A stretch of DNA of 34,552 nt from a virus. Shown one piece after another: positions 1-31,631 of the stretch; the first letter of the stretch is position 1; each line of letters opens with the position of its first letter. The DNA is taken from the IMG/VR virus record IMGVR_UViG_3300033004_000006, positions 1-34,552 of that record. One strand, given 5' to 3'. The position numbers and the translations under genes were made by a program. The notes below the pieces were generated by a model. That model was not told where the DNA came from. It made no database searches and worked only from the letters and a program-made list of their open reading frames with translations.

Positions 1-445
1 GTGCCAGTCCAGCCATGCCGTCAATAACAAGAGCACGACTAGGAGTCCAAGTATCAACACACCCGAACCGTTGTCCAGTGCGATCATCAGGGAAGTCATT
101 CAAAACCTCCAAAAGTTTGATGAATTGGTTGTGCTTCGAGCGGTTGGGGTCTTGGAGTTTGGCCAAGGTGTCCAACTGCATCGTGTTGATTTTGTTTGCT
201 GCGTCCATCAGTTCAAGGAATGAGGCTTTGGGGGCCTCCATGTTGTGCCAATGGACATTTGCGGGAACTTCTTTGCCCTTGTCTGTCCAATAGGCCAGCA
301 AGGATTCGAGGCCAGGCTCCAACCCCAAATAAAAGACCTCCACACCTGCATCTGCCAATGTGCCGATGGCGTAGGTTTTTCCTGTGCCAGCCGGACCCAT
401 AAGAAGGCAATTTACCCCGGCGAGAATTGACACTTTTTCCGTCAT
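1..445 (-). CDS. RecA/Sak4-like P-loop ATPase, 3' end outside window
   Basis: The frame is open from an ATG at 445 to the window edge (148 residues seen). It has a Walker A motif, GPAGTGKT, at residues 17-24 and a Walker B-like strand, ALVIDG, at 138-143. Spacing and size fit the compact phage ATPases of the Sak4/RecA-like group, which act in recombination or single-strand annealing. That assignment is inferred, because the C-terminal half is missing. The start codon overlaps the TGA of the upstream HNH gene (ATGA), so translation is probably coupled. The first 16 residues resemble a 19-codon remnant at 953-1012, which suggests that the HNH gene inserted into this gene. A Cas4-like nuclease is encoded a few genes upstream in the same operon, as expected for a recombination module. 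Confidence 0.8.
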   Translation of the reverse strand, partial: MTEKVSILAGVNCLLMGPAGTGKTYAIGTLADAGVEVFYLGLEPGLESLLAYWTDKGKEVPANVHWHNMEAPKASFLELMDAANKINTMQLDTLAKLQDPNRSKHNQFIKLLEVLNDFPDDRTGQRFGCVDTWTPSRALVIDGMAGLA

Positions 446-894
446 ACTAAGCCTCTGTTTTTGATGTTACATATACATCCGGTAGACACTCCCCACTTTC
501 TGGCAGTGGGGCGAATTCCGGCGCCAGCTTGCAGTTCATTCCAAATCTCAGTTCTTTGCGCGTTAGACAGTTTTGCCATCCCATGCCCTTCCCCTTTTGC
601 AGACCTTCCCTTATCCTTTTTATCCTTCATATTGTCTGCGTTTGTACCAAGCCTCAGATGCTCTGGATTAACGCATGAAGGGTTGTCACATCTGTGCAAT
701 ACCATCAATTCGGGGTCTGTGATGGGTCCGACATAAACCTCATAAGAAACTCTGTGGGCTCGGAGATGGTAATTCCCGATTTGAAGTTTTCCATACCCTT
801 TTGGGCTTAAAGAACCTGTCCAAATCCAACAACCTGGAGTAACTCGAAATCGGGCTTCTAGATATGTTTGAAGTGTTTTTTTAGTCAGTGTCAT
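442..894 (-). CDS. HNH homing endonuclease (HNH_3 type) with C-terminal HTH
   Basis: 150 residues. The N-terminal GCWIWTG motif (21-27) and the HNH core with H67, N76 and H79 (VLHRCDNPSCVNPEHLRLGT) are typical of small HNH_3 homing endonucleases. Residues about 112-148 look like a helix-turn-helix (RPTARKWGVSTGCICNIKNR), which would contact the target site. A GGAGGG ribosome binding site precedes the ATG, and a consensus TATAAT lies about 30 bases further up, so the gene probably has its own promoter. It lies between two copies of the ATPase N-terminus and ends in an ATGA overlap with the intact ATPase. The context is that of a homing endonuclease gene inserted in an essential gene, not of a phage core gene. 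Confidence 0.9.
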   Translation of the reverse strand: MTLTKKTLQTYLEARFRVTPGCWIWTGSLSPKGYGKLQIGNYHLRAHRVSYEVYVGPITDPELMVLHRCDNPSCVNPEHLRLGTNADNMKDKKDKGRSAKGEGHGMAKLSNAQRTEIWNELQAGAGIRPTARKWGVSTGCICNIKNRGLV

Positions 895-923
895 AAACCC
901 TCCGTATTATTAATGACACTCCT

Positions 924-929
924 ATTATA
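924..929 (-). promoter_or_regulatory. Consensus -10 element upstream of HNH gene
   Basis: A perfect TATAAT reads leftward between the ATPase remnant and the HNH start. No convincing -35 is visible. It would give the HNH gene its own transcript, independent of the operon. Confidence 0.45.
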
Positions 930-952
930 TCTAGAATCCCCGGCCCGGATTA

Positions 953-1012
953 TTAAGACATGGTGAGCATCACGTTTGTGCCTGCTAATACGCTTTTCTT
1001 TTCTTCAGTCAT
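953..1012 (-). pseudogene. Remnant of the ATPase 5' end, cut by HNH insertion
   Basis: A 19-codon frame, MTEEKKSVLAGTNVMLTMS, starts in an ATGA overlap with the stop of the 74-residue gene upstream. Its first 16 residues align with the N-terminus of the ATPase downstream of the HNH gene (MTEKVSILAGVNCLLMG). With one gap, ten of about 19 positions are identical, and similarity stops just before the Walker A motif. The simplest reading is that this is the original start of the ATPase gene, left behind when the HNH gene inserted, while a second, complete 5' end was supplied on the other side. It might still be translated as a short peptide. Confidence 0.6.
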
Positions 1013-1233
1013 TTGCTATCCTTCATTTTGCAGATTAGGTAAGTTTCGCTAGGCCACTTTTTAAGCAATCTGTTTTTCCGTCTTTCGGCTTTCTTCTTAG
1101 AATCTGTTTCGAAGATTTCCTGACGGCCCTGTTTTGGGTCATCTACTACCCAAGTAGGTTTGTACAGATCGGCCAGTACCTTTGAGTAAAGGTTATTTTT
1201 TCCGCAATACCATATCCTATAACGAGGGGTCAT
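1009..1233 (-). CDS. Small basic protein, unknown
   Basis: 74 residues, rich in lysine and arginine (KKKAERRKNRLLKKWP at about 46-61), with several aromatic residues near the N-terminus. No family is recognised. The ribosome binding site AGGATAGGAAATG supports the ATG at 1233. The gene overlaps the 3' end of the gene before it by 17 bases, and its TGA overlaps the ATG of the ATPase remnant. It is therefore a tightly coupled member of the recombination operon. Confidence 0.65.
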   Translation of the reverse strand: MTPRYRIWYCGKNNLYSKVLADLYKPTWVVDDPKQGRQEIFETDSKKKAERRKNRLLKKWPSETYLICKMKDSK

Positions 1234-1689: not shown

Positions 1690-2726
1690 TACATCATCCC
1701 CCTCAATTCATCACCCAATGCCACGCCATCATCCGTAGCCTGCCCCTTCAACCCTGCTGCTGGCGGCAAACTCGGGTGCCTCACATGGCCCCATGAGGCC
1801 TCAAAATCGGCAACACTCATTTCCGATCTCTGCAAAGGATCCCACACGCGCTGCTCAAACTTCGCTGGCAACCATTCTTCCGGATTCGAGGACTTGCACA
1901 CACTGACAAAAGAGCACCCACCGTAGTCCGTGCATGCACCGTCGAGGGAGAAGTCCCAATACCCTTCTTCCCAGCATCGAATCATTCGCTGTATGTCCCG
2001 ATTGACTTGCCGCTCCCAACGATCGATTTCATAATCAGAGCGATAAGTCTCCACTTCCAAAGTATCATATTTAGTCTTGAGGATGGATACCCCACGAACA
2101 ATTGTTCCAGCTGTCTTGATACCTTGTCTCCGGGCTGCCCAGGAATAACCAGTAAATTGACTACGCATCTCCCATTGACGGCCCCAAGTTGCACCGAGAG
2201 ATGAAGTGGTCTTCTCGTCATAAATCCACACTCCCGCGCCGTAGCGCTCTGCGATCATGTCCGACCGTCCTGTGTAGAGGATGGGATCCCCCGTCACAGG
2301 GTGTCTGACTTCAAGCGGCTCTGCAAAAGAAAATTCGATCCCTCTACGACCCGACGCGAGCGTAATGGGAGTGGCCCCGTCAGCTCCAAGAGGGTAGTTA
2401 AACAGATAGAATTCAAACGCCCCACACATTCGTTCAAGGGACTTTGCTGAGTCATCAGGGCAGTCGAAGTCGCCATAATGTGCAATAAGGGCAGAAAGTC
2501 CTGCAGCCTCTGCGTCAGCAGCGCTTCGCCCTTCAACGTAGAAGGCTGTTCGAGCCGCCTCAATAGCGCTTGCAAACGCTCCCCCGGCGACAAGGTGGAC
2601 AGACTGCTGGAGGGGCTTCCAATGATCGACATATTGGTATTTGAATTTGGCAGGGCACGAACGGAACGTGGACAGGATGGTCGAATCCACAGTGTGGGGA
2701 AAGAGAGGCCTGAGTTGGGGTTCCAT
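1689..2726 (-). CDS. PD-(D/E)XK nuclease, Cas4/RecB-like, probable 4Fe-4S
   Basis: 345 residues. The ATG at 2726 overlaps the TGA of the upstream gene; a GTG just before is the alternative start. Catalytic signature: D156 in GRSDM, then D170-E171-K172 (YDEKTTSS), then Q190/Y194 in the QxxxY motif (QFTGY). Four cysteines occupy the places used by the Fe-S cluster of Cas4/AddB-type nucleases: C24 (SCPAKFKY) and C265, C271, C277 near the C-terminus. Such phage enzymes are 5'-3' exonucleases that make single strands for recombination. Pairing with the RecA-like ATPase in the same operon supports that role. No Cas gene is nearby, so this is not evidence of CRISPR. Confidence 0.87.
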   Translation of the reverse strand: MEPQLRPLFPHTVDSTILSTFRSCPAKFKYQYVDHWKPLQQSVHLVAGGAFASAIEAARTAFYVEGRSAADAEAAGLSALIAHYGDFDCPDDSAKSLERMCGAFEFYLFNYPLGADGATPITLASGRRGIEFSFAEPLEVRHPVTGDPILYTGRSDMIAERYGAGVWIYDEKTTSSLGATWGRQWEMRSQFTGYSWAARRQGIKTAGTIVRGVSILKTKYDTLEVETYRSDYEIDRWERQVNRDIQRMIRCWEEGYWDFSLDGACTDYGGCSFVSVCKSSNPEEWLPAKFEQRVWDPLQRSEMSVADFEASWGHVRHPSLPPAAGLKGQATDDGVALGDELRGMM

Positions 2727-2986
2727 CACACACTCTCCGACAACTGCTTCTTGAGGTCGGCCACACGGTTTTCCATGATCGCCAAATCTTGCTTGAGGCG
2801 GTCGGAATGTGTTTCGCGAAGAACGGTGTCCAGATTGAATCCATCGGGAATTTCAATCTGAAAGTCTTTTTTCAGGACTAGAGCTTCGTTTTTTGTAAGC
2901 GGTGCTTCGAATGAATCGATTCTATACACCACTTTATCGTTGTAGTCCTTGTATGCATGCACATACGCAGTCACGGTTACAATCAT
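2726..2986 (-). CDS. Unknown 86-residue protein with C-terminal coiled coil
   Basis: The start is set at the ATG at 2984-2986, because the phage's extended ribosome binding site (AGGCTCA) lies two bases before it; a GTG at 2998 falls inside that site. The C-terminal third (LKQDLAIMENRVADLKKQLSE) has heptad-like spacing of hydrophobic residues and is probably a coiled coil. The stop overlaps the nuclease start. No family is recognised. Constant co-occurrence with the nuclease in other phages would be the first thing to look for. Confidence 0.65.
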   Translation of the reverse strand: MIVTVTAYVHAYKDYNDKVVYRIDSFEAPLTKNEALVLKKDFQIEIPDGFNLDTVLRETHSDRLKQDLAIMENRVADLKKQLSESV

Positions 2987-2994
2987 TTTGAGCC

Positions 2995-3435
2995 TCACTT
3001 AAGCAGATTTTCGAGTTGCAGACGGGCGTCACCCTCAACACCGGACAGAATCTGAGCTGCAAAAGACCGCCGAAGATTTGCGCGATAAGCATCAGCCACC
3101 GCCTCTTCGATCTTGCGGTTTCGCTCCATATTGGCTTCATGCTCAGTCAGATCAATCTTCATGATGACCCAACGCAATTCGTACTCTGCATTCGGCTGCA
3201 CTTGCACCGTATCATCAACATTGACGACAGTCACTACTTTCATTTGCCCTGCGGCCTCCACAAGAACCTGGTCCCCGACTTTCACATCAAGATGGGTGAC
3301 ATAGTTGTAGAGTTTTGCCTGTTCCTTCTCACCGCCATTCCTGGCGATGTACTCGTTATCATAACGAGAAGGGGTGAATGTCACTCGAATAGTCTTTGCA
3401 TCGTGGCGCAACAGTGCTGCAATATTCTTATCCAT
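2995..3435 (-). CDS. Unknown 146-residue protein, beta-rich centre
   Basis: Residues about 50-75 (LDVKVGDQVLVEAAGQMKVVTVVNVDD) read like a small beta-barrel of the KOW/SH3 sort. The C-terminal half is helical and charged. The AGAGGCTCA ribosome binding site fits the second of two tandem ATGs (3435); the first, at 3438, would overlap it. The stop lies 9 bases before the next gene's ATG. No function can be assigned. The position in the recombination operon and the barrel-like stretch would fit a nucleic-acid-binding accessory, but that is inference. Confidence 0.7.
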   Translation of the reverse strand: MDKNIAALLRHDAKTIRVTFTPSRYDNEYIARNGGEKEQAKLYNYVTHLDVKVGDQVLVEAAGQMKVVTVVNVDDTVQVQPNAEYELRWVIMKIDLTEHEANMERNRKIEEAVADAYRANLRRSFAAQILSGVEGDARLQLENLLK

Positions 3436-3466: not shown

Positions 3467-3688
3467 TTACAGGCCAAGTTCGCCTAGCAAATCGTCACTG
3501 TTAATCGGCTGAGCCTTTGCCTTCGCGTCAGCCTTTTTGGCCTTCGATTTGGTGCTGGTTTCCTGCGCGTTGACACGCTCTTTGCGGATCGCGGCGATGG
3601 CTTCGCGCATCTCATCGAGGGTGAGGCCTTCGGGGGTTGCAGCCTTTGCGCGCCAATATTGGATCTTTTCGGCAATAACGTCAGACAT
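3467..3688 (-). CDS. 73-residue protein with DDLLGELG tail
   Basis: The ATG is preceded by AAGGAG at a good distance. The N-terminal 40 residues are helical (LTLDEMREAIAAIRKERV). A Lys/Ala-rich linker follows, then the C-terminal tail NSDDLLGELGL. The same tail occurs in two larger unknown proteins of this phage (6959-7525 and 8814-9434), so it is probably a docking peptide for a common partner. Function is unknown. The N-terminal helices match 'EGLTLDEMREAI' patterns common in small phage proteins. Confidence 0.72.
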   Translation of the reverse strand: MSDVIAEKIQYWRAKAATPEGLTLDEMREAIAAIRKERVNAQETSTKSKAKKADAKAKAQPINSDDLLGELGL

Positions 3689-4141: not shown

Positions 4142-5527
4142 CTAACTCCCCGAACATAGAAACAGTCTCGTTGTGGGACGAGTACAAGCAACATAAAGGC
4201 ACTGAAAAGCCTCCTTCCGATTCCTGTTATACAAAACGTCGTTTACGTCTACGAACACGGTTTCGTAGGTCGAGCCTTGGGAACGATGAGCCGTGATCGC
4301 ATTGGCGTAGCGAATGTCATGAAAGAGCTCTTTGTGTTCCCAAAACTTCTTCCACAGCTTCGGATTCGTCCGCGCTTCGTGGGCCATAGACTGACTATCA
4401 TTGTCAAAGGTTTGCTTTGACGATGGGTGAATCACCAATAACCTAACGACGCGATTATCTTCTGTGCGAGCCTTGAGTTCGATTGCATGATACTTTGGTT
4501 CCAGTGGGTGAACGCAGTTCGCGACTGACTCCACGATAGCTTCGTCGTCAGTACCCATGAGGTAGTCATCTCCGCGCTCGCAGGGTCCGGCAGCGACAAC
4601 ACGGTCCCCCGGCAGGAAGAATCCAGGGACAGCATCAGCTCCATAAATTCCCGCCCTAGCAATGGCATTATATTCTGCAACTCTGACATTTCGCCAGGAG
4701 ATAACTTTTGCGGTAGTACCGTCAGCGAAATCACCAGCCTGTGCGGCGGCAAAGATTCGCTCTTTGAATTCACGCTGAGAGAGCTTCCAGATCCCTGTGT
4801 GTCCATCGTTGTCGCTCCTAATTTTGATCGATGGGGCCAAGGAATTGATCTGTTCCCGCACCATCGTGGCGAATGTGAGGATTTGGTTATCGTGGCGCAT
4901 TACTCGGGTGAGGTTGGCTCCCTCCATGCCCGTGAGTGCCATCGATGCCGGTTCTCCCACGGGGGGCAATTGCGCCAAGTCCCCCATGAACACAACCTTC
5001 AACCCCCACCGCTCTGCTGTCACCCGCAAGATATCGAAGAGGTTTCTGTTCACCATCGAAGCTTCGTCAACCACAATAACATCAAGATTGCTAAGGTCAG
5101 GAGTCTTACCTGCCACAACCTGTTTGAGTTCCCCAGACTTATCCACACGTAGGCCAAGCAAAGAGTAAATAGTACACGCATCGCCAGTCACCTGTTTGAG
5201 GACTTTCGCGGCCTTGTTCGTAGGAGCGGTGTAAGCGAACGCCGAAGCCGAAGAACGACAGCGCGCAACAACTTCACGCATGCAGAAGGTTTTGCCTGTG
5301 CCTGCGAATCCCGTGAAACAAAAATACCACTGGAATGTTGAGGGGTCTTCGATGAAGTCGATGAGGCGCTGAACCGCGATCTTTTGTTCAGGGTTGAGTT
5401 CCACAGGTTTGTGTGAAAATCCTTGACCCATTGGGGCGTTGTCAACATGATATTCGACGGCTTTGTCGAGTTTGCTTTGGCTAAGGTCGCTATCATCTTC
5501 CCATGGCGGGAGAGTGCTATCTGTCAT
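4142..5527 (-). CDS. Dda/RecD-like superfamily 1 DNA helicase
   Basis: 461 residues from the ATG after AAGGCTCAT. Motif I is GFAGTGKT (73-80), motif II VVDEAS (152-157), and motif III MGDLAQLPPVG (181-191). Motifs V/VI lie near the C-terminus (ITAHRSQGSTYETVFVD and YVACTRPTTRLFL). Order and length match the 5'-3' helicases of the RecD/Dda group (AAA_30 plus UvrD_C_2). In T4, Dda works at replication initiation and in recombination, and the same use is likely here. The gene is complete and is followed two bases later by a zinc-ribbon gene. Confidence 0.92.
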   Translation of the reverse strand: MTDSTLPPWEDDSDLSQSKLDKAVEYHVDNAPMGQGFSHKPVELNPEQKIAVQRLIDFIEDPSTFQWYFCFTGFAGTGKTFCMREVVARCRSSASAFAYTAPTNKAAKVLKQVTGDACTIYSLLGLRVDKSGELKQVVAGKTPDLSNLDVIVVDEASMVNRNLFDILRVTAERWGLKVVFMGDLAQLPPVGEPASMALTGMEGANLTRVMRHDNQILTFATMVREQINSLAPSIKIRSDNDGHTGIWKLSQREFKERIFAAAQAGDFADGTTAKVISWRNVRVAEYNAIARAGIYGADAVPGFFLPGDRVVAAGPCERGDDYLMGTDDEAIVESVANCVHPLEPKYHAIELKARTEDNRVVRLLVIHPSSKQTFDNDSQSMAHEARTNPKLWKKFWEHKELFHDIRYANAITAHRSQGSTYETVFVDVNDVLYNRNRKEAFQCLYVACTRPTTRLFLCSGS

Positions 5528-6958: not shown

Positions 6959-7525
6959 TTATGCCAGTTCGTCAAGCAGTGCATCCGTATCAACTGCTTC
7001 CTTTTCCTTCTTCTTCTTCTTGGCCTCAAGCTCAGCCACAATCGGGGCGATCTTCGGATTTTGGCGAAGAGCCAGCTTCTCGGCATTCGTCTTCGTCTTG
7101 AGGTAGTCCTTGATTGCCTGCGGGGACTTGCCGGTTTGCTGGATGAGGGCACGGGCCAGCACGCTCGTACCTGCCAGACCCGACGATTCACGCTTGGCCG
7201 TCCATTCGCCTTCGTTCAGACGGTCGATGACCTCTTCCACCGCGAGGACCATATCCTCAATGTCCTTCAGGCCGGCGACTTCATCACCCACCTTTTGCTC
7301 GATGCCGTGCGCAGCGAACTTTGCGAAGAGTTCAGCATTGGGGGCGATGGTGAAAGAGCGAACTTCGCCATTACGGAAGTCAAATCGCGTGGTCACATGG
7401 CCGTGATGGTCAACCGTGCTGGACTTCAGAAGCTGACGCTTGCCGGGAAACTTAACCGTCGTGCCGTCGTCCATTGCCACTTCTTCGTATTGCGTACCCT
7501 TTGCTGCCACTTGTTCTTCGCTCAT
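6959..7525 (-). CDS. Unknown protein, paralogue of 8814-9434, DALLDEL tail
   Basis: 188 residues from the ATG at 7525, which has GGAG seven bases before it; an upstream ATG at 7606 lacks a site. The N-terminal third is beta-rich. The middle (GIEQKVGDEVAG..., LARALIQQTGKSPQAIKDYLKTKTNAEKLALRQNPKIAPIVAELEA) aligns over about 110 residues with the protein at 8814-9434. The C-terminus is a lysine linker followed by VDTDALLDELA, the acidic tail also seen at 3467-3688. Function is unknown. The gene is followed by the tRNA on the same transcript. Confidence 0.8.
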   Translation of the reverse strand: MSEEQVAAKGTQYEEVAMDDGTTVKFPGKRQLLKSSTVDHHGHVTTRFDFRNGEVRSFTIAPNAELFAKFAAHGIEQKVGDEVAGLKDIEDMVLAVEEVIDRLNEGEWTAKRESSGLAGTSVLARALIQQTGKSPQAIKDYLKTKTNAEKLALRQNPKIAPIVAELEAKKKKKEKEAVDTDALLDELA

Positions 7526-7582
7526 TTGCCACTCCATCAGGATTGTTGGGGGCGGCACCGCGTTTTGTGTGCCGTTGATAGA

Positions 7583-7611
7583 ACTATACAGGGAACCCCA
7601 TAACAATGCAA
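7583..7611 (-). promoter_or_regulatory. Sigma70-like promoter for gene 6959-7525 and the tRNA
   Basis: Leftward TTGCAT, 17 bases, TATAGT. The -10 matches five of six consensus bases and the -35 three. The expected start near 7575 gives a leader of about 50 bases before the ATG. Confidence 0.5.
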
Positions 7612-8813: not shown

Positions 8814-9434
8814 TCATGCCGCCACGGGAGTCTTGCGGCGCTTCACGGGCATTGCCAATTGCGGCGTGACCATCGGTTCGCCCGTTTCGACGTTCGCCAC
8901 CTGCTCAACCGGTTCCGCTCCGAGTTCGCCCAACAATGCATCCGTGTCCACATCGCCGGCCTTCGCTGCCTGCAATTCCGCAATGATTGCCACGACCCGG
9001 GGATTGCGTTTGAGTGCCGCACGCTGTTCCTTCGTTTTGGCCGAGAGGAATTGATCCACATAATCCTTGTCCCGGCCCGTCATTTGCATGAGGGCGCGAA
9101 TCAACAGATTGTTGGTGCCGCCGGTTGATTTGCTCTCGCCACCGTCCCCGCGCTGTTTGTTCCATGTGCCATTAGGCGATGTGAGCCGTTCGTATACCTC
9201 ACGCACGGCAGCATATTTGTCATCAATGGATGCCGATGCGCCGGTTTCGGTGTTGCGAGCGATTGCCCCCGCGTCAACGAGCTTTTGCTTGATGCCATGC
9301 ATCATCGCCATGCGTTGAATCTCCGGCGAGAGCGTCGCGGTGTCGATAGCCAAGTCTTTGCCGTTTGCAAACGTGACCGTTACCGTGGTGCCGAAAATGT
9401 CGACGGACATTGCATTGCGCTTGGTGGTATTCAT
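8814..9434 (-). CDS. Unknown protein, paralogue of 6959-7525, DALLGELG tail
   Basis: 206 residues from an ATG behind GAGGCTCACTC. The N-terminal strand region (VDIFGTTVTVTFANGKDLAID), the helix MMHGIKQKLVDAGAIA and the segment LIRALMQMTGRDKDYVDQFLSAKTKEQRAALKRNPRVVAIIAELQAAK match the protein at 6959-7525 in order. VDTDALLGELG follows, then about 35 extra residues ending in a basic stretch (KRRKTPVAA) that the paralogue lacks. Function is unknown. Two diverged copies within 2 kb suggest a duplication kept for related but distinct jobs. Confidence 0.8.
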   Translation of the reverse strand: MNTTKRNAMSVDIFGTTVTVTFANGKDLAIDTATLSPEIQRMAMMHGIKQKLVDAGAIARNTETGASASIDDKYAAVREVYERLTSPNGTWNKQRGDGGESKSTGGTNNLLIRALMQMTGRDKDYVDQFLSAKTKEQRAALKRNPRVVAIIAELQAAKAGDVDTDALLGELGAEPVEQVANVETGEPMVTPQLAMPVKRRKTPVAA

Positions 9435-12166: not shown

Positions 12167-12700
12167 ATGGCTAAACCACTTGTAATAGATGACATCAAAG
12201 AGATCATTCATCAAAGAATTGTTCTTCACGAAGATGGGTGTTGGCTTTGGACTGACCAATTCAATCGAAGTGGTTATGGCATCATGTCTTATCAAGGGAC
12301 TAAATATGTAATGCACAGGTTGTCATGGACAGTATTTAAAGGGCGCATTCCCTCGGATTTGTTTGTGCTGCATAAATGCGATATAAGAAATTGCATAAAT
12401 CCGGAGCATCTATTCTTAGGAACTGCCCAAGATAATATGGATGATATGAGAGCCAAGGGAAGGGGAAGGTATCCAGGCAGGCCTAAGGGGAAGGTTAAAA
12501 TATTAGACAGGGCCAAAAAAGAAAAAGAAGTTGCGAATCAACCGTCCAAAACCAGGGGTAGGTTGCCAGTCCTTACCCAAGAACAAATAAGTTACATAAA
12601 ATCTGTTTACGTGCGTGGGAGGGAAAACCCAACTATGAAACAGCTAGCCGAGAAGTTTCAGGTCAGTGTGACGGTAATCTCGAAAGCCGTAAATTCATGA
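12167..12700 (+). CDS. HNH homing endonuclease with C-terminal HTH
   Basis: 177 residues behind CGGAGGGCCT. GCWLWTD (24-30) and the HNH core with H69, N78 and H81 (VLHKCDIRNCINPEHLFLGT) match the HNH_3 group. A basic linker follows, and residues about 150-176 (PTMKQLAEKFQVSVTVISKAVNS) form a helix-turn-helix. The gene is more A/T-rich than the terminase genes after it, a sign of separate origin. Free-standing HNH genes next to terminase genes are common in phages, and some also help packaging; here homing is the simpler reading. Confidence 0.9.
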   Translation: MAKPLVIDDIKEIIHQRIVLHEDGCWLWTDQFNRSGYGIMSYQGTKYVMHRLSWTVFKGRIPSDLFVLHKCDIRNCINPEHLFLGTAQDNMDDMRAKGRGRYPGRPKGKVKILDRAKKEKEVANQPSKTRGRLPVLTQEQISYIKSVYVRGRENPTMKQLAEKFQVSVTVISKAVNS

Positions 12701-12706
12701 GAATAT

Positions 12707-12758
12707 TTCCCCTGCGTGATGTGCTATCATTCTGTTCATCTACCCACGCGCAGGGGAA
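12707..12758 (+). promoter_or_regulatory. Hairpin that hides the ribosome binding site of the first small-terminase gene
   Basis: TTCCCCTGCG (12707-12716) pairs with CGCAGGGGAA (12749-12758), extended by two more pairs, with a 28-base loop. The 3' arm contains the AGGGGAA ribosome binding site of the gene at 12763. An extended -10-like TGCTATCAT lies in the loop. A transcript starting there would lack the 5' arm and escape the block. Confidence 0.5.
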
Positions 12759-12762
12759 TAGC

Positions 12763-13125
12763 ATGACCACAGACAGCAGCAATACGCTCAAGAAGCTCAC
12801 GTACACGCATGAGGCGATGATTGACCTCATTCTTCAAGAGCCCACGGTTTCGTATAAGGAACTGGCGGAGATTTTTGGCTTCAGTGAAGGCTGGATTCAA
12901 CGTGTCGTCGGCTCGGATGCCTTCAAAGCCCGCCTGTCGGAGCGCAAGGCCGCCCTCATCGACCCGGTGATTGCCCGCTCGCTCAACGAGCGTCTTCGAG
13001 GCGTGACTGTCAAAGCAATTGACCTCATCAGCGAAAAACTGTCCTCGGAAGAGGCCGGGGCAGCGTATGCTTTGGATGCCCTCGGGATTGCTACGAGTGC
13101 CATCTCGAAGGTGCGAAATGGTTGA
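12763..13125 (+). CDS. Small-terminase-like HTH protein, first of two paralogues
   Basis: 120 residues; the ATG follows CAGGGGAATAGC, and the longer frame from 12697 has no site. YTHEAMIDLILQEPTVSYKELAEIFGFSEGWIQRVVGSDAFKARL is a helix-turn-helix of the sort found in small terminases. The rest is a helical oligomerisation region. It aligns through its whole length with the next protein (13118-13705). It stops just past the shared region, without the long C-terminal part. It may be a second DNA-recognition subunit or a regulator of packaging. Confidence 0.7.
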   Translation: MTTDSSNTLKKLTYTHEAMIDLILQEPTVSYKELAEIFGFSEGWIQRVVGSDAFKARLSERKAALIDPVIARSLNERLRGVTVKAIDLISEKLSSEEAGAAYALDALGIATSAISKVRNG

Positions 13126-13705
13126 AAAGGCTTCGACGGAGCTGCAGGAGCTAGCGCAACAACTCATAGACGGACCTCACCCATCCGAGGTATCCCCTGT
13201 TGTTGTAGCCCCTCTTGCTTGCTCCGTCCCCTACACCCCCGAACGTATGGTGCAGTTAATGGTTGACCATCCCGATTGGGGGCACAAAGAATTGGCTGCG
13301 GCTTTCGGGCGGCTACCTTCATGGACTTCCGCCGTATTGGCGAGCGATGCCTTTCAACAGGCTCTCGACATGCGACGCCATGAGGTAGCTGACCCATCCC
13401 TTTCCGCCACGATGGAAGAGAGATTCAAAGGGCTGGCTATTCGAGCAGCCACTGTTCTGCAAGAGAAGCTCAACGGTCAGGGAGTGTCGGATCTTGTGGT
13501 GCTGAAGGCAGCGGAGTTGGGGATCAAGGCTCTTGGGCTTGGTCAGAAGGCCCCTGAGACTCCACAATTGCCGTCGAATCAGAACTCTTCCGAGTCCGTG
13601 GCAGAGAAGCTTCTGGCTGCAATGGATGCCCGTGATCGCGCCCGCACCGTTGACGTTCAAACTGTTGAGGTGAGGGAGCCTGATGGCCAACGCTCAACAG
13701 ACTGA
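13118..13705 (+). CDS. Terminase small subunit (second paralogue)
   Basis: 195 residues from the ATG at 13118, overlapping the previous stop. YTPERMVQLMVDHPDWGHKELAAAFGRLPSWTSAVLASDAFQQAL is the DNA-binding helix-turn-helix. The helical core (RFKGLAIRAATVLQEKL...VLKAAELGIKALGLG) should form the ring. The C-terminal 60 residues (ending in a charged AEKLLAAMDARDRAR stretch) are absent from the paralogue and probably contact the large subunit, whose gene overlaps this one by 23 bases. It selects phage DNA for packaging. Confidence 0.75.
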   Translation: MVEKASTELQELAQQLIDGPHPSEVSPVVVAPLACSVPYTPERMVQLMVDHPDWGHKELAAAFGRLPSWTSAVLASDAFQQALDMRRHEVADPSLSATMEERFKGLAIRAATVLQEKLNGQGVSDLVVLKAAELGIKALGLGQKAPETPQLPSNQNSSESVAEKLLAAMDARDRARTVDVQTVEVREPDGQRSTD

Positions 13706-31063: not shown

Positions 31064-31349
31064 GGCGGGGGCTATGAGGGCAATAGGCAAAATCTATTAG
31101 CCATCCCGGCCCCCGCCCCCTACAATGTAATCGTTGCAAGTGTGAATCGGCCTACTACCGATGGGGCCTAGCTAGCCCCGCATCACACTGTTTAGAGGAA
31201 CACGCAACACGTGCTCGGCTGCAAGAGCACAGCCCACCACCAAGGCTAGACACCCGACTGAAAGGTCGGGAGGGCTTAAAAGAAGCGCCGAGCGTACCAA
31301 GGCTAGGATTATTCCTGGCCATTTGTGCTGTCTGATCGAAAGACTAGCC
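31064..31349 (+). ncRNA. Candidate structured RNA, unknown class
   Basis: No frame fits, yet consecutive stable stems fill the region. Stem 1 is GGCGGGGGC (31064) with GCCCCCGCC (31109), holding an inner stem 31079-31086/31094-31102. Next is a three-way junction: GTGTGA (31140) with TCACAC (31183), enclosing ATCGG-7-CCGAT and GGGGC-7-GCCCC. Then GTGCTC (31211) with GAGCAC (31225); CCCGAC (31253) with GTCGGG (31265); GGCTAGGA (31301) with TCCTGGCC (31313); and GTCT (31330) with AGAC (31341). ACCAAGGCTAG occurs twice (31239, 31296), and CTAGCC at 31344 could pair with either. A remnant group I intron, a regulatory leader for the genes after it, or a new RNA are all possible. The strand is inferred from transcription direction. 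Confidence 0.5.
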
Positions 31350-31364
31350 ATATATAAGGAATTG

Positions 31365-31376
31365 TTTGTAGGAATA
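31365..31376. repeat. Palindromic repeat copy 12, one arm
   Basis: TTTGTAGGAATA, with the AATTG flank of copies 4 and 13; the second arm is missing. It lies directly before the degenerate HNH gene. Confidence 0.55.
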
Positions 31377-31388
31377 ATGGAGAGTTCA

Positions 31389-31631
31389 ATGGAAAAGTCC
31401 AATAGGCAACGTGTCAAAGATAGCCTGACGCTGAAGGTTCCCGGTGGGTGCTGGATATGGAAAGGTCCGCGACATCCCCGATCCGGTGCCCCATCATTTT
31501 GTTGGGACGGCAAATGGACGCTTGTTAACCGTGCTGCTGTCTGGAAGTTAAAGCCCGGTGAGAGGGTTGTCCTAAGCTGTCAAAATCCCCTCTGCATCAA
31601 TCCCGCACACAGAAAAGTAGAAAAAATTTAA
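31389..31631 (+). CDS. Degenerate HNH_3-like protein
   Basis: 80 residues from the ATG after GGAGAGTTCA; earlier in-frame ATGs reach back to 31323. GGCWIWKG (19-26) and CQNPLCINPAH (64-74) match the two HNH endonucleases in the window. However, the first catalytic His of the core (VLH) is Ser63 here, and nothing follows the last His except six residues. The C-terminal DNA-binding helices are missing. It is either a decaying homing endonuclease or a protein that kept only the fold. The structured RNA immediately upstream makes an intron remnant worth testing. Confidence 0.65.
   Translation: MEKSNRQRVKDSLTLKVPGGCWIWKGPRHPRSGAPSFCWDGKWTLVNRAAVWKLKPGERVVLSCQNPLCINPAHRKVEKI

Follow-up and report, generated by a model that had tools for sequence, protein, structure and literature searches.

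A phage HNH endonuclease gene inserted in an ATPase gene together with an apparent replacement 5' end of its target

The DNA analysed here, hereafter the window, is the virus record IMGVR_UViG_3300033004_000006 at its full length of 34,552 nucleotides (nt; positions 1 to 34,552), and our subject is an HNH endonuclease gene that interrupts the 5' end of a Sak4-like ATPase gene on the minus strand (Table 1). Ahead of the HNH gene, the end of a 74-amino-acid (aa) gene overlaps, by the letters ATGA, a 19-codon frame that reads MTEEKKSVLAGTNVMLTMS and then stops (1012-953). This frame contains a stranded copy of the ATPase start, from which it continues into the inserted DNA up to the stop at 953. 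The stop of the HNH gene in turn overlaps the start of the ATPase, again by ATGA, and the ATPase, MTEKVSILAGVNCLLMGPAGTGKT, runs from 445 to the contig edge. The HNH protein matches PF13392 (HNH_3; E 3.1e-11, above the curated cut-off) and phrog_1872 (E 3.4e-34). Neither the HNH protein nor the ATPase had a match among PDB sequences, and a promoter scan found nothing above chance. The complete ATPase, of 278 aa, is encoded by the overlapping contig L002, which shows no difference from the window in the 4445 bp that were compared.

Table 1. The interrupted ATPase locus in the window, with the parts named as we interpret them
Feature	Position	Strand	Remarks
74-aa gene without assigned function, upstream neighbour	1009..1233	-	no Pfam or PHROG match
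Stranded native ATPase 5' end, codons 1-16, MTEEKKSVLAGTNVML	965..1012	-	45/48 nt identity to the L003 ATPase start
Left part of the insert, 70-nt spacer	895..964	-	TAA stops, TATAAT-like box (GATATAATAG) and putative GGAGG ribosome-binding site ahead of the HNH start
HNH endonuclease gene, 150 aa	442..894	-	HNH_3; phrog_1872; C-terminal helix-turn-helix-like region
Replacement ATPase 5' end within the insert, codons 1-15, MTEKVSILAGVNCLL	401..445	-	ATGA overlap with the HNH stop
Entire insert, 564 nt, between native ATPase codons 16 and 17	401..964	-	zero target bases lost
Native ATPase body from the Walker A codons on, Sak4-like, phrog_124	2..400	-	truncated here by the contig end

Relatives of the window ATPase are encoded by 59 viral contigs. 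The ATPase of contig L003, which is 92% identical and has no HNH gene, possesses the uninterrupted start MTEEKKSVLAGTNVMLMGPAGTGKT, that is, the stranded peptide of the window followed directly by MGPAGTGKT, and the ATPases of L004, L005 and L012 start MTEEKKS(A/T)LPGTNVLLMGPAGTGKT. In L005, the 74-aa gene is joined to the ATPase directly by ATGA, and DNA identity to the window over that junction is 95%. The site is occupied in the window and L002 and empty in L003, L004, L005 and L012, and related phages thus show a presence/absence polymorphism at a fixed position. Comparison with L003 located the insertion exactly. The empty site in L003 consists of GTAATGCTC directly followed by ATGGGTCCGG, while the occupied site in the window has GTGATGCTC, the 564-nt insert ending in CTTCTT, and then ATGGGTCCGG. 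In the corresponding alignment the left flank ends with GCAGGCACAAACGTGATGCTC and, after the insert, ATGGGTCCGGCTGG follows where L003 goes on. The spacer (70 nt), the HNH gene and a new start of 45 nt together make up the 564 nt. The two ends of the insert coincide at one point directly ahead of the Walker A codons, the predicted cut region being CTC/ATG.

An earlier note, made from the letters of the window alone, had placed an HNH gene in the ATPase 5' end with the N-terminus on both sides, and the L003 comparison confirmed this. The break lies exactly where that note saw the match stop, right before the Walker A codons, and L005 is the HNH-less relative it predicted, with the 74-residue gene joined to the ATPase by ATGA and a remnant-like N-terminus. 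Its identification of the 19-codon remnant with the ATPase N-terminus holds for codons 1-16 (1012-965), whereas the last three codons (T-M-S) and the stop are inserted DNA. The remnant is clearly an ATPase N-terminus, and the arrangement named as telling against the note's explanation, a 19-codon frame and an intact ATPase without an HNH gene, was absent from the approximately 130 ATPase loci fetched.

The two starts differ strikingly in their relationship to the empty allele. The stranded copy is identical to L003 at 45 of 48 nt, whereas the functional start matches L003 at only 24 positions and the stranded copy at 25, and identity to L003 is back to approximately 96% in the first 45-nt window past the junction. 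As peptides the two starts match with a BLOSUM62 score of 40, which was reached by one of 5000 shuffles; the same match scored 41 in the screen of HNH genes described below, a value attained by about 0.1% of the cross-locus null. Ten residues are conserved between them, and eight of these ten have synonymously changed codons. Two related copies of a short segment flanking an inserted gene would also result from a transposon-like target-site duplication of approximately 48 nt, one copy of which later diverged. After such a duplication, however, the dead copy should decay and the live one be conserved, and we see the opposite: the dead copy keeps the sequence of the relatives, so that the live start is the foreign one, brought in with the insert. 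In addition, the insert contains no transposase gene, and in a Vibrio phage considered below the foreign stretch extends approximately 1.2 kb into the gene; a duplication of this kind is therefore very improbable. Judged by their sequences, the functional start is foreign and the stranded start is native, and because of this the best explanation is the one put forward in the earlier note, namely that the homing gene brought a replacement 5' end, which is now supported by the comparison with relatives. A search for the donor with an ATPase profile against GTDB genome contigs recovered no relative.

Introns and inteins are the textbook routes by which a homing gene can reside inside an essential gene without killing it. 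An intein is excluded here, since stop codons occur in the insert past codon 19 of the remnant. A group I or II intron could in principle join the stranded start to the ATPase body, leaving the inner start incidental, and the clean placement between codons 16 and 17 and the presence of an HNH gene, as in many phage introns, would suit it. Only about 111 nt of the insert lie outside the HNH open reading frame, however, which is too little to hold the ribozyme core of either intron group. The insert has no Rfam match up to E 0.1, and it ends in an in-frame homologous ATPase start that would be superfluous for a splicing intron. Given the insert length and the lack of an Rfam match, we consider a splicing intron as good as excluded. 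The ATPase is predicted to be full length without splicing (278 aa in L002 versus 279 aa in L003). The insert is instead very probably a splice-free homing element that consists of the HNH gene and a foreign, divergent 5' end of its target. This replacement 5' end is probably resistant to cleavage. The interrupted gene would be kept alive by a swap of its beginning, with no need for splicing machinery.

The arrangement is not confined to the allele found in the window. In L009, the same ATPase is preceded by an HNH gene of a different lineage (38% identical over the aligned 122 aa), whose open reading frame opens with the stranded start MSEPLPKSTLPGVNV in an in-frame fusion with the nuclease; the ATPase that follows starts MSNELNQKSTLPGTNVLLMGPAGTGKT. 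We read L009 as an independent event at nearly the same ATPase codon. At the other end of the gene, L002 carries a second HNH gene (4834-5298) directly 3' of the ATPase, which is thus flanked by HNH genes on both sides in this phage. In L002 and L055, the HNH genes just past the 3' end of the ATPase are plain intergenic insertions, at which no duplicated C-terminus was found.

We surveyed HNH genes more widely by a start-anchored screen, in which we looked ahead of each HNH gene for a repeat of the N-terminus encoded by the gene following it. This screen replaced an earlier, unanchored comparison of upstream and downstream sequences, which was swamped by low-complexity matches and would miss the case in the window. 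Among 135 dereplicated testable HNH clusters, six scored at least 38, compared to approximately 0.4 expected from mismatched pairs, and four of the six were genuine on inspection: L002 (the allele of the window), L009, L235 (terminase small subunit) and L339 (a small unknown protein). L195 and L209, both at an SF2 helicase, were found in the first start-anchored screen. Other matches were rejected, that of L214, one of the six, being compositional, that of L192 reflecting two full-length paralogues, and those of L180 and L068 joining unrelated sequences. The match in L324, the other of the six to be rejected, stems from two related HNH genes in tandem (2530-3025 and onward), possibly a duplication of a homing gene. 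Possible mirror cases, which would amount to 3'-end replacement in a phage, were noted in L289 (2300-3320) and L226 (2400-3110) and are weak; there, the C-terminus encoded ahead of the HNH gene is repeated after it.

At the SF2 helicase the pattern is widespread. Thirty-six viral contigs from metagenomes carry an HNH gene that shares at least 71% identity with the one in L209, and in all of those that extend far enough, this gene is followed immediately by the same helicase. The HNH stop overlaps the helicase start in these loci, which have the replacement start (M/V)(E/A)KI.LR.YQ in common, and the stranded native start M(Q)LR(D/E)YQQRTIDQLYA persists in approximately 15 of the 36. In an HNH-less relative, L455, a helicase of this family directly follows an upstream gene, the match of that gene to the HNH-bearing loci having been judged by eye.

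The pattern of the window, a foreign replacement start combined with a stranded native one, is also replicated in Vibrio phage 1.191.O and in a prophage of E. coli BY63. Vibrio phage 1.191.O (MG592561) encodes an HNH protein 53% identical to that of the helicase family. Ahead of this gene lies ATGTTCAAACTCCGCTACTACCAACAGGACGCG, whose 33 nt are the same as those that open the helicase gene in the HNH-less sister phages 1.086.O, 1.087.A, 1.100.O and PS15B-5, and behind it the helicase restarts as MKLTARPYQEDAIEAV (with MKLTARPYQEDA as its start). Sliding identity of the 1.191.O helicase to its closest sisters is about 45-77% for approximately 1.2 kb (about 50-77% to 1.086.O) and then about 85-98%. 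We read this as a donor tract that is sharply bounded on its left and ends within the gene on its right. Two further sister phages, 1.246.O (L256, 1193-2014) and 1.225.O (L257, 1447-1992), carry other putative homing genes before the same helicase, one of them annotated with a nuclease-associated modular domain; their helicases have the replacement start MKKMKPRPYQQDAIDAV in common, and a stub is absent. The start of the helicase appears to be a hot spot at which homing genes of several families insert.

In the BY63 prophage, the stranded start of the terminase small subunit is identical at 36 of 36 nt to that of the intact Pantoea phage PA-1. The annotated start of the BY63 protein (L244:1822-1853, WP_170933703.1) is MFRRCDLKQL, and homology begins at an in-frame TTG (LKQLTPKQELF). 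It seems that the HNH insertion has caused the start to be annotated too far upstream.

Phage genomes are mosaic, and the pattern could also have arisen if an ordinary free-standing HNH gene had inserted between genes and a later, unrelated crossover had swapped the ATPase 5' end, the stub being accidental. Most of the surveyed HNH genes do lie between intact genes and have no stub. In T7-like phages of Klebsiella, Dickeya, Citrobacter and Escherichia, HNH genes immediately precede the ligase gene or other genes, essential ones in the case of Klebsiella and Dickeya, and no start is duplicated. Mosaicism is evident in the window itself, the flanks of which match different relatives best. Against such a crossover, the end of the stub, the end of the insert and the resumption of native sequence coincide at a single point with no base lost, and the same architecture occurs with unrelated HNH lineages and at several target genes. 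We consider it improbable as an account of the window and continue to favour a homing element that brings its own 5' end.

Several observations nevertheless weigh against this interpretation. Ordinary recombination between mosaic phages could account for some of the pattern. The closest relative of the HNH protein (62% identical), in L008, is encoded directly before the ATPase without a stranded start, and approximately 20 of the 36 helicase loci lack the stranded start or have it trimmed to a few bases; the left junction appears to vary or decay across loci. Among viral contigs, the one match to a degenerate DNA pattern for the donor start MTEKVSILAGVNC was the contig of this phage that overlaps the window. 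In addition, the activity of the enzyme, the cut site and the mobility of the element are inferred.

In the mechanism that we propose, the HNH enzyme would cut HNH-less ATPase alleles early in the gene, near the Walker A codons, as the insertion point suggests. Repair on the side of the gene body would copy the donor, with the HNH gene just before the donor's own copy of the target gene. The donor start would be joined in frame to the recipient gene body and the native start would be left upstream as a dead fragment or lost. The ATPase would stay complete, with the start codon of the element overlapping the HNH stop. Where the other side has no homology, it would be closed by an illegitimate join, of a kind documented for one-sided homing of the td intron in T4 (PMC2988022, citing Parker 1999). 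Once formed, stub and body could act as two homology arms between which the insert would move as a clean unit, and such movement would fit the exact junction in the window. The recoded start would protect the occupied allele from being cut again; the eight recoded codons of ten are no more than consistent with such protection.

With confidence only a little better than even, we suggest that phages host widespread homing elements that replace 5' ends. In such elements the stop of an endonuclease gene would overlap a cleavage-resistant start of the target, and the stranded start may later serve as a left homology arm. Such a pair would behave like an intervening element of a third kind, next to introns and inteins, that relies on a new start codon rather than splicing, and the elements would drive rapid, chimeric evolution of N-termini in replication and packaging genes. 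Stranded starts offer predicted cut sites at base resolution for several HNH enzymes, including those of cultured Vibrio phages, and elements of this kind would explain why the N-termini of some phage proteins diverge puzzlingly, as well as some short orphan frames and misannotated gene starts.

Elsewhere in the window, two more HNH genes were found on the plus strand (12167-12700 and 31323-31631). The former shares an ATGA overlap with the open frame that precedes the terminase genes, and no stranded start was seen there. Just upstream of the terminase large subunit, two adjacent small genes (12697-13125 and 13019-13705, plus strand) have similar C-terminal halves and are perhaps a tandem duplication of a terminase-small-like gene. 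The genes at 6959-7606 and 8814-9434 (minus strand) are apparent paralogues ending in VDTDALLxELx, and a third similar tail lies at 3467-3688. The 74-aa gene next to the interrupted ATPase has no match in cultured phages.

A phage version at the 5' end was not found described in the literature, a search limited to open-access text, in which absence is weak evidence. The earlier note knew of no standard name for the arrangement; counterparts do exist, at the 3' end. In the WHO elements of Torulaspora and Lachancea yeasts, the unit is an endonuclease gene with a resistant gene end, and the FBA1 3' end is replaced (Coughlan et al. 2020, PMC7282813). As we propose for the phage element, where resistance is predicted, the endonuclease and the resistance-conferring target fragment are mobile, one end of the target is replaced at each homing event, the old end is left as a fragment and no splicing is involved. 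WHO elements differ in acting at a 3' end, in nuclear yeast genomes and through intein-derived enzymes fused to zinc fingers, whereas the phage elements combine a 5' end, HNH enzymes, a translational overlap and several unrelated targets. With its HNH domain and the 5' end of a Sak4-like ATPase, the element in the window is not a WHO element proper, which has an intein-derived endonuclease with a zinc finger and the FBA1 3' end.

Hybrids formed by mobile open reading frames in fungal mitochondria likewise bring replacement C-termini, in Allomyces atp6 and in Glomus atp6, atp9, cox2 and nad3 (PMC3630166). There too, an endonuclease frame brings a foreign end, the native end is kept as a duplicate, and the native copies match relatives while the inserted ones do not; the differences are the C-terminal end, the mitochondrial setting and the LAGLIDADG or GIY-YIG enzymes. 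In Tremella, an N-terminal duplication is associated with elements that carry a duplicate of part of the host gene, leading to exchange of gene fragments (PMC7315562). These are described as mitochondrial introns, one of six confirmed as real, and lack a free-standing HNH gene with a coupled start codon. Among phage systems, intronless homing by the Seg and Mob enzymes of T4 also moves free-standing homing endonuclease genes into relatives lacking them, by double-strand break repair with co-conversion of the flanks, but cleavage occurs hundreds or thousands of bp away from the endonuclease gene, and the accessible portion of the account reports no stranded gene end or recoded start (PMC2988022). 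The ShiLan element is an actively homing HNH insert within a phage methylase gene, not identified as an intron or intein, for which the portion of the report available mentions no replacement start (PMC11855218). End-swapping is known at 3' ends, in yeast nuclei and fungal mitochondria, and its occurrence at 5' ends in phages suggests convergent use of the same strategy.
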